A stretch of DNA of 57,866 nt from an uncultured Anaeroplasmataceae bacterium (GTDB lineage Bacteria; Bacillota_I; Bacilli_A; Acholeplasmatales; Anaeroplasmataceae): assembly GCA_949840955.1 (NCBI GenBank), contig CATKXV010000011.1, positions 1 to 57,866 of the forward strand. The letters are read 5' to 3'. Position 1 is the stretch's first letter; the number at the start of each line of letters is the position of its first letter. The notes beneath the pieces were generated by a model. It made no database searches. It was not told where the DNA came from and was given only the letters and a program-made list of their open reading frames with translations. The position numbers were made by a program, and so were the translations under genes. Below, piece by piece: positions 37,445 through 41,000 of this stretch.

Positions 37445-38764
37445 TTATTTATCATGCTTATTTCGTATTCTTTTTTTTATAAATATAGATGAAAAAACAA
37501 GTAGGGTGGTTGTAATCTCAGAAAGTGCAATAGATAAATATACTCCATTTTCATCTAAAAGCATACTTAGAAGGTAAGCTAAGGGAAGAAGAAGGAAGAG
37601 CTGTCTTAATAGGCTTAAGAATAAAGAGGTTATTCCTCTTTGAATGGATTGAAAATAGGAGGCCATGATATAGTTGATACACCCAAAGCAAAAGCCGATG
37701 GATGCTAATCGTAAAAATGTATTGGTTTGGGCTATCAGCTGTTGATCCTCATAAAACATCATCATTAACAAATTCGGTATCCCCATAAAGATTAGAGTGG
37801 CTATAGCCCCAATACCTAAGGACAATAAAATAGAATCCTTTAAAAGCACCTGTAACCTTTTTTCATCCCTAGCTCCAAAGCTATAGCTCATTAAAGGCAT
37901 TGTTCCTTGGGCAACACCACTAACCCCCATATAGACAAAGTATTGTAGCTTATAATAAATACCAAAGGTGGTAATGGCCATTTCATTTATGGTTATAAGA
38001 ATATAATTCATTATGGTTACCATAAATGAAGGAATTGCATTCATAAAAAAGGAAGGGATACCAATCCTATAGATAGAAATTAGATTGGACTTGTCAAAAT
38101 AAAAGCCTTTAATTTGAAGTCGTACACGATTTCTCTTAGATAGAATAAAATATAGCATAACCATGGTAGCAAGTACCTGGGCTATTACAGTAGCCAATGC
38201 AGCACCAAAGACTCCCATATTACAGTTAAAAATAAGTATAGGATCTAAAACGATATTGATAATTACTCCAGTTAGCAAAGAGAACATAGGTAAAAGCATT
38301 TTGCCATCCGCCTGTAATATTTTTTCCATAGCAATTTGAAAAATCGTTGTAAAGCTAAAAATGATGATCATATGAATATAGGTAGTCCCATAATCAATGA
38401 CAAGAGCTTCATTTGTAAAGCTTTCTATGAATATTTTAGATAGTCCCAGTCCTAGCCCTAAAACGATGATATAATGAAAAAAAGAAAGAATCATCCCTAA
38501 GGTAGCAGCATTTTCTGCTTCCTTGTGCTTTTTTTGACCCAATTTCATTGCAATACATGCATTCATACCAACTCCAACTCCAACCGATAGGGCCAATATC
38601 AGATTTTGTATAGGATATACGATCGATATAGCCTCCATAGCCTTAGGATCATAGCTTGTAATATACATAGAATCAATTAGGTTATATAAGGATTGAATAA
38701 TCATAGATAATGCAGGGGGAATGCTCATCTTAATGATTAGAGATAAAACTTTATTTTCTTTCAT
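37445..38764 (-). CDS. MATE family multidrug efflux transporter
   Basis: This inner-membrane protein of about 439 residues has twelve predicted helices in two similar halves. The start (VLSLIIKMSIPPALSMIIQSLYNLIDSMYI) matches the DinF/NorM-like MATE group, as does GVGVGMNACIAMKLGQ. MATE pumps export cationic drugs with Na+ or H+. ATG at 38764 is chosen because GGAGTGG lies 5-8 nt upstream. Two in-frame GTG codons just upstream overlap that site. The leader region contains a terminator and a ten-codon ORF, a sign of attenuation control. Confidence 0.92.
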   Translation of the reverse strand: MKENKVLSLIIKMSIPPALSMIIQSLYNLIDSMYITSYDPKAMEAISIVYPIQNLILALSVGVGVGMNACIAMKLGQKKHKEAENAATLGMILSFFHYIIVLGLGLGLSKIFIESFTNEALVIDYGTTYIHMIIIFSFTTIFQIAMEKILQADGKMLLPMFSLLTGVIINIVLDPILIFNCNMGVFGAALATVIAQVLATMVMLYFILSKRNRVRLQIKGFYFDKSNLISIYRIGIPSFFMNAIPSFMVTIMNYILITINEMAITTFGIYYKLQYFVYMGVSGVAQGTMPLMSYSFGARDEKRLQVLLKDSILLSLGIGAIATLIFMGIPNLLMMMFYEDQQLIAQTNTFLRLASIGFCFGCINYIMASYFQSIQRGITSLFLSLLRQLFLLLPLAYLLSMLLDENGVYLSIALSEITTTLLVFSSIFIKKRIRNKHDK

Positions 38765-38791
38765 ATGCACCACTCCGTTCCATAAAAAAAT

Positions 38792-38840
38792 AGCCTCGTA
38801 TGTTTGTTTGGTTTACTCCGAAACAAAAAAATACGAGGCT
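38792..38840 (-). terminator. Attenuator-type terminator in the MATE leader
   Basis: On the minus strand AGCCTCGTAT (38840-38831) pairs perfectly with ATACGAGGCT (38801-38792), followed by ATTTTTTT. It lies inside the 5' leader, between the promoter at 38856-38884 and the MATE start, so it would stop transcription unless disrupted. Confidence 0.85.
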
Positions 38841-38845
38841 TTCAT
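38813..38845 (-). CDS. Ten-codon leader peptide of the MATE gene
   Basis: ATG at 38845 gives MKASYFFVSE and a TAA at 38813. Codons 2-5 are the left arm of the attenuator stem, so a ribosome paused on or just after them would keep the stem open. The ATG lies only about 5 nt from the predicted transcription start and has no ribosome site, so initiation would be leaderless. No homology is claimed. Confidence 0.5.
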   Translation of the reverse strand: MKASYFFVSE

Positions 38846-38855
38846 AGCGTTAGTC

Positions 38856-38884
38856 ATTTTAACATATCTATGTCCAAATGTAAA
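38856..38884 (-). promoter_or_regulatory. Promoter of the MATE leader
   Basis: On the minus strand TTTACA (38884-38879) and TAAAAT (38861-38856) have a 17-nt spacer. The -35 box touches the end of ispG. Confidence 0.7.
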
Positions 38885-38886
38885 GA

Positions 38887-39927
38887 TTAAAAAGCATCTA
38901 TTTCCTTTTTTAGCTCCTCTAAAAGCTGTTCTTCCTTTATTTTTCTTATAATTTTACCCTTTTTAAATAGAACTGCCTCATGCATTCCACCAGCAATTCC
39001 TAAATCAGCCTCTTTTGCCTCCCCTGGACCATTTACAGCACAGCCCATTACAGCAACATGAATTTTCTTATTCACAGAATTTAGATAATCCTCAATTTCT
39101 TTTGCGATGGGAATCATATCATAGGCAGTCCTTCCACAGGTAGGACAAGAAGTAAAGGTAGGCAAATTTTGAATGTAATGCAATTCCTTTAATATTTCTT
39201 TTGCAGCAATAACCTCATATTTGGGATCATCTGTTAAAGAAACACGAAGTGTATTTCCAATTCCTAAGTCTAAAATTTTAGATATACCTATACTCGATTT
39301 AATTAGCCCCTTAAAGGAAGTGCCTGCTTCTGTAATTCCTATATGAAGTGGGTAAGGAAAGGTTTGACTAGCAAGCTTATATGCCTCTAAGGTTAAATCA
39401 ATTGAAGAGCATTTTAAGGATAGACAAATATTATAAAAGCCGAGCTCCTCTAAAATGGAAATATGTCTTTTTGCTGCCTCAATCATATGCTCAGGTGTTG
39501 GCTTGGCAATATCCTTAGGTAAAGAGCCCCCATTTACCCCGATTCGAATCGGAATTCCCTTCCTTTTGCATAAATCAACAATTTCAATGATTTTCTCCTT
39601 ATTTGAAATATTCCCTGGATTTAAGCGGATTTTATCTACACCCTCCTTTATGGCTATGATGGCTAGCTCAGGATCAAAGTGTATATCAGCAACCAAGGGG
39701 ATATGGATTTTATCTAAAATTTTAGATAAGCTATAGGCATCCTCTTGATCTAAAACAGCTACACGAACGATTTCACAGCCTAAGGCTTCCAATTCAAGAA
39801 TTTGCTTTATCGTTGCCTCTGTATCCTTCGTTTTTGTATTACACATACTTTGTATATAAATATGATCATTTCCACCAAATTTCAAATTTTTTAGCAAAAA
39901 CTGCTTTGTTTCCTCTCGTTTAAACAT
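38887..39927 (-). CDS. ispG: 4-hydroxy-3-methylbut-2-enyl diphosphate synthase (flavodoxin type)
   Basis: IspG (GcpE) carries out the penultimate step of the MEP isoprenoid pathway with a [4Fe-4S] cluster. The 346-residue protein has the N-terminal TIM barrel (YIQSMCNTKTKD, VADIHFDPELA, KIRLNPGNI) and the C-terminal cluster domain with CPTCGR and MGCAVNGPGE, which provide the three cysteines and a glutamate. The ATG at 39927 is preceded by GGTGAT. The frame extends 52 codons further upstream but that stretch has no family similarity. Length is normal for bacteria. Confidence 0.96.
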   Translation of the reverse strand: MFKREETKQFLLKNLKFGGNDHIYIQSMCNTKTKDTEATIKQILELEALGCEIVRVAVLDQEDAYSLSKILDKIHIPLVADIHFDPELAIIAIKEGVDKIRLNPGNISNKEKIIEIVDLCKRKGIPIRIGVNGGSLPKDIAKPTPEHMIEAAKRHISILEELGFYNICLSLKCSSIDLTLEAYKLASQTFPYPLHIGITEAGTSFKGLIKSSIGISKILDLGIGNTLRVSLTDDPKYEVIAAKEILKELHYIQNLPTFTSCPTCGRTAYDMIPIAKEIEDYLNSVNKKIHVAVMGCAVNGPGEAKEADLGIAGGMHEAVLFKKGKIIRKIKEEQLLEELKKEIDAF

Positions 39928-39976
39928 TTTTATCACCAATTCTATTATATCAAACGAAAGAAAAGAAAAAAAGTAG

Positions 39977-40928: not shown

Positions 40929-41000
40929 TTAGCACTTTTTCGTTGACAGTGCCAAATGATTGTTATATAATAGTGTTGCACTAAGGAAAGAAGAGTGCAA
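40929..41000 (+). promoter_or_regulatory. Heat-shock promoter with two CIRCE operators
   Basis: CIRCE 1, TTAGCACTT-N9-CAGTGCCAA, is at 40929-40955 and covers the -35 box TTGACA (40943-40948). The -10 TATAAT is at 40966-40971 with a 17-nt spacer. CIRCE 2 is at 40976-41000: TTGCACT-N11-AGTGCAA, with the standard GCACT-N11-AGTGC core. Both are slightly off consensus. HrcA, encoded next, should bind them. Confidence 0.88.

Follow-up and report, generated by a model that had tools for sequence, protein, structure and literature searches.

What controls the expression of a MATE efflux transporter gene preceded by its own promoter, a short reading frame and a terminator-like hairpin? The gene (37445-38764, minus strand, ATG at 38764, 439 aa) lies in the window, the whole 57,866-nucleotide stretch of DNA analysed here, and belongs to the MepA-like branch: its product scores 183 bits with NCBIfam TIGR00797 (cut-off 147.4), with a weaker resemblance to MepA and FepA. 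According to the original prediction, the leader is an attenuator operated by a leader peptide, so that two questions have to be separated, whether the leader is an attenuator at all and whether a peptide or the RNA itself would operate it.

A promoter-hairpin unit that goes with the pump

The promoter, the ten-codon ORF, the 10-bp hairpin and the T7 tract are all found where they had been placed, on the minus strand from 38884 to 38784. The promoter (38884-38856) consists of a TTTACA -35 (38884-38879), a 17-nt spacer and a TAAAAT -10 (38861-38856) preceded by TG (TG-N-TAAAAT); the predicted RNA start is the G at about 38848. The RNA could open with a candidate mini-hairpin, P0 (38838-38848, minus strand), pairing GCU (38848-38846) with AGC (38840-38838). 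It is followed by the terminator hairpin (38792-38840, minus strand), whose outer stem is a perfect 10-bp pairing of AGCCTCGTAT (38840-38831) with ATACGAGGCT (38801-38792). The 29 nucleotides that appear as its loop contain a U-rich 5' internal loop, an inner stem of 7-9 bp (UUUGUUU/AAACAAA with GG/CC) and the apical loop, which makes the hairpin two-tiered. Directly 3' of the right arm come a single A and the T7 tract of the intrinsic terminator (38784-38790, minus strand), then the Shine-Dalgarno sequence GGAG of the MATE gene (38773-38776, minus strand). The layout is thus that of an attenuator, a GC-containing hairpin and a U-tract standing between the pump's own promoter and its Shine-Dalgarno sequence. 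The leader fold reaches -29 kcal/mol (z = -3.4), a value attained by only 1 of 200 shuffles.

Taken alone, the promoter match is not significant (27 promoter-like matches found versus 21.6 expected), and a consensus terminator scan passed over the hairpin, as its loop exceeds the length permitted by the scan. It is the conservation of the promoter-hairpin unit in a relative that raises it above chance. Elsewhere in the window, on the plus strand (40929-40971), a perfect sigma-70 consensus TTGACA-17-TATAAT lies ahead of hrcA; this promoter overlaps a CIRCE-like inverted repeat with 3 mismatches, for which 0.01 occurrence is expected by chance.

The only close relative (G001, leader L031, identical to G001:C45) is of the same genus and its MATE is 74% identical. 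It keeps the promoter, with its spacing and position, the hairpin, the T-tract and the Shine-Dalgarno layout of the window. The longest DNA run identical between the two, leader and gene together, is the 30-nt AAAGCCTCGTATTTTTTTGTTTCGGAGTAA, covering left arm and loop, while the next-longest, the best within the 74% identical gene, is 20 nt. On the other hand CGCTTAAAAGCC replaces the CGCTATGAAAGCC of the window, so that the start codon of the ORF is absent, and the upstream gene of the relative is divergent from the pump, unlike ispG, which precedes the pump in the window (38887-39930, minus strand, NCBIfam ispG). Since the relative keeps the unit with neither the ORF nor ispG, the unit goes with the pump independently of both. 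The hairpin may double as the end of the ispG transcript. We rejected its being a mere ispG terminator, as the relative keeps it without ispG, and also its being a bidirectional terminator, as the plus strand carries no T-run.

One leader family in one clade of MATE genes

The wider family escaped both an exact-pattern search allowing 3 mismatches, which matched the window and its close relative only, and a class-wide search with strict first filters using R1, a covariance model built from these same two sequences. It emerged only from the inspection of the leaders of 38%-identical MATEs. Immediately 5' of the Shine-Dalgarno sequence, MATE genes at 35-40% identity from other families of the class display the same anatomy: an outer stem of 7-10 bp, UUU(U/C) on the 5' side, an inner stem ending in UUU/AAA, an apical loop of about 8-11 nt, then a T-tract. 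In most members the promoter has the spacing and position seen in the window. The UUU following the left arm is invariant in the 23 leaders compared; the apical loop differs among subfamilies (CGGAGUAAACC, CUGAUNAU, UAUGUUCC) and varies more than the core of an aptamer typically does.

Although R1 received no input from other leaders, of the 21 non-source loci that it matched, 20 are leaders of MATE genes from other families, with E-values no higher than 0.22 (4e-8 for L108, the best, then 9e-6 for L119 and L136); off-target matches appear only at E ≥ 0.3, except for the same hairpins read on the opposite strand. A second model, R3, was built from 22 other leaders without the window or its close relative; its alignment was fitted to R1, so that the reciprocal tests are not fully independent. 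In the window R3 recovers the leader with 59.6 bits (E 3e-8), the next match having an E-value of 0.12, and in the whole 2.1-Mb genome this leader is the only match at E ≤ 0.01. Across the class, matches at E ≤ 0.01 occur in 14 of 390 genomes, and every forward match stands directly before a MATE gene, ending about 10-55 nt 5' of its start. The phylum-level scan adds two genomes, G498, where the match precedes a MATE gene, and G581, whose match (E 0.002) lies outside any MATE leader with no long ORF after it and was treated as chance. Among the clostridial MATEs at 31-36% identity in a plasmid collection, the element is absent.

Both sides have changed in 16 of the 19 base pairs, and 96.5% of the cells are paired, against 31-51% when the partners are slid. 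The leader is thus a conserved structured RNA with covariation, exclusively associated with MATE genes, hence with functionally coherent genes. Certainly this covariation reveals a conserved hairpin and not a switch, since a terminator must keep its pairing regardless.

In the tree of the MATE genes, a single clade (support 98/93) comprises every sampled MATE that has this leader, 29 in number, and 4 carrying another leader named type D; other MATE branches have different leaders or none. The tree shows six changes of leader label for six groups, the minimum being five. Given such a one-clade distribution, the leader is a trait inherited within one pump subfamily.

The leader RNAs of other MATE branches, and even of a sub-branch within this clade, are unrelated to the window-type leader (types B, D and E); in the same bacteria, MATE genes are preceded by three or more further leader designs that are not catalogued. 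Type D (TTGTGGATTTTT...TTTTCGCCACA; L003-L006, L129, L130) contains a CCACA able to pair either with a 5' GTGG, as an antiterminator, or with a 3' TGTGG, as a terminator; the four sampled MATEs that carry it being nested among those with the window-type leader, it probably replaced this element. Type E carries a near-identical CACTTTGCATAAAACATNAGAAACTATCGAAGTGA followed by a terminator (L139, L140, L143, L144, L147, L148, L154, L156; a similar core in L007), its MATEs form a separate clade (support 99/99), and it looks like another orphan riboswitch candidate. Rfam gave no match for L143, L007 and L090. In type B, from Anaeroplasmataceae (L010-L014, L065-L067), AAGTGAGTNGCAC precedes a terminator with a near-invariant GTAAGTCC; a conserved leaderless peptide MSxTIVxKSx, considered for L010-L014, was dropped because L065 and L066 lose stop and frame. 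Type C is a long terminator, GACGTTAAAYGTCATCTYTTC/GAAGAGRTRTGTTTAATGTC, before a further type of MATE (L025, L026).

Reading frame, RNA or trans-acting factor

Of the original prediction, the attenuator part is upheld by the promoter of its own that the hairpin has, conserved in the close relative. The peptide part fared differently. It supposes that the ten-codon ORF MKASYFFVSE (38845-38813, minus strand; ATG AAA GCC TCG TAT TTT TTT GTT TCG GAG TAA) is translated leaderless and that a ribosome stalled by a drug covers the left arm and opens the terminator. The ORF and the arm geometry are indeed present in the window, and similar-looking ORFs exist in L108 and L110 (MLKSYRFLYF) and in L133 (MSKDYRFYCF). 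However, such superficial similarity is met at chance frequency: reading from the predicted RNA start, 6 of the 28 members have an ATG ORF that runs into the hairpin, where shuffles of the 5' leader predict 5.6, and 9 have such an ORF, against 10.4 predicted, when GTG and TTG are also allowed. The start codon, missing in the close relative, is missing in most members too, and the conservation of MKA-x-YF upstream of homologous MATE genes does not hold within the family. The reading frame from arm to loop shifts among close relatives (L116-L118, L120 and L121 compared with L103), so that the stop is not kept, and several members have their hairpin so close to the predicted transcription start that no transcribed room is left ahead of it. 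The leader-peptide mechanism is therefore not supported across the family; we judge the ORF of the window, its start codon not being conserved, non-functional, and control by its translation improbable. A convincing-looking leader peptide can thus be a sequence accident inside an RNA element, and comparing the reading frame with the RNA structure is what separates the two.

We slightly favour another reading, in which the leader would be a MATE-specific transcription attenuator that acts as RNA, without a peptide, and is a riboswitch candidate. RNA polymerase would start about 8 nt before the hairpin and, by default, the two-tier structure (outer 10 bp, inner 7-9 bp) with its U-tract would stop transcription some 20 nt short of the pump's ATG. 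Before the right arm is made, the 5' half of the element (P0, the U-rich segment and the inner hairpin) might capture a ligand, probably some toxic pump substrate; binding would keep the bottom of the left arm off its partner beside the U-tract, so that transcription would continue and the pump be produced when its substrate accumulates. We infer the sensing step by analogy with terminator-embedded riboswitches of exporters, such as guanidine-IV and Gd4v.

P0 might contribute to this step: it would rival the pairing at the terminator base and, as the sequences weakly suggest, keep the foot of the left arm off its partner. It reads GCU-UAAA-AGC in the close relative, and both of its sides are changed in others (GUC/GAC in L133 and L134, GGU/ACC, and GGUU/AACC in L135 and L137). 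Over 23 representatives its pairing amounts to 67 positions, and that of shuffles to 54.2 (sd 4.7), a surplus of 2.7 standard deviations. P0 is missing in L088, L098 and L145, and the truncated RNA of the window prefers to it a competing short helix, UAUGA/UCGUA.

Instead of a small ligand, a trans-acting partner, either an RNA-binding antiterminator protein or a small RNA, might recognise the hairpin. The conserved U-rich 5' strand and the inner hairpin could be a protein site, and L103 very weakly resembles bglG-cis-reg of Rfam (E 0.36, far under the cut-off); against this, no regulator gene was found beside the pump in the window, and the element stays before the MATE gene in differing neighbourhoods, so that we hold such a factor unlikely. 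The hairpin might also be an unregulated terminator, or one sensitive to elongation rate, which only damps the expression of the pump and, in the window, ends ispG transcription as well. Its strength, with the T7 tract, fits this, as does its position in the window, 47 nt after ispG with no other terminator. But the close relative has no co-directional upstream gene to terminate, the internal-loop and loop sequences are conserved far past what a plain terminator needs, and the element is kept in one MATE clade across families; we thus give this explanation rather little credit.

Going back to the attenuator acting as RNA, a bolder proposal, which we put forward tentatively and at somewhat less than even chances, is that the element represents a minimal-sized riboswitch of a new orphan class, in which aptamer and expression platform would coincide in one two-tier terminator hairpin some 50 nt long, passed down with one MATE subfamily in the class that includes Anaeroplasmataceae. 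With the unrelated leaders of types B, D and E before other MATE genes of the same bacteria, RNA sensing of pump substrates may have arisen more than once, as with guanidine-I to -IV. To our knowledge, few natural substrates have been established for the MATE pumps of gut-type bacteria. A compound that relieves termination would be a likely physiological substrate of the pump, for which the leader, as it appears to gate one MATE subfamily, offers a direct handle.

The leader among known attenuators and riboswitches

With gathering as well as relaxed thresholds, Rfam 15 returned only chance-level matches for the window and the relatives of its leader, and in the open-licence papers that we searched the element is unreported. 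One likeness is with the guanidine-IV riboswitch and the Gd4v motif, found before sugE/mepA-type exporters and some MATE genes (PMC7736828, PMC9788692, PMC11611296): there too an RNA switch embedded in a terminator precedes an exporter, and antitermination there is driven by a ligand. The build is different, however. Guanidine-IV/Gd4v RNAs measure about 90 nt and comprise two hairpins, of which the second is the terminator, linked through a pseudoknot, whereas the leader of the window is one two-tier hairpin plus, at most, a mini-hairpin of 3-5 bp. No shared loop sequence between the two could be shown. We rejected identity with guanidine-IV/Gd4v, as the RNA of the window and of its close relative has only some 7-8 nt ahead of the hairpin, which leaves no room for a first one.

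The leader-peptide attenuators Rli53/lmo0919 (PMC8079631), the tylosin-induced yxjB of B. subtilis (PMC6851288) and msrD (PMC10314930) likewise combine a promoter-proximal intrinsic terminator, a short leader and a resistance gene. Unlike them, the present family conserves neither a uORF nor its start codon, frame or stop, and in several members the RNA is too short for an antiterminator under ribosome control. Finally, the generic attenuators with a 5' intrinsic terminator collected by comparative genomics (PMC2965389) also place a terminator between promoter and start codon; the window leader differs from them as a member of a defined MATE-specific sequence-structure family, without a match in Rfam 15. 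We regard the element as a new family within an established type of device, the transcription attenuator; it is probably riboswitch-like and, with its single hairpin, unusually small in build.
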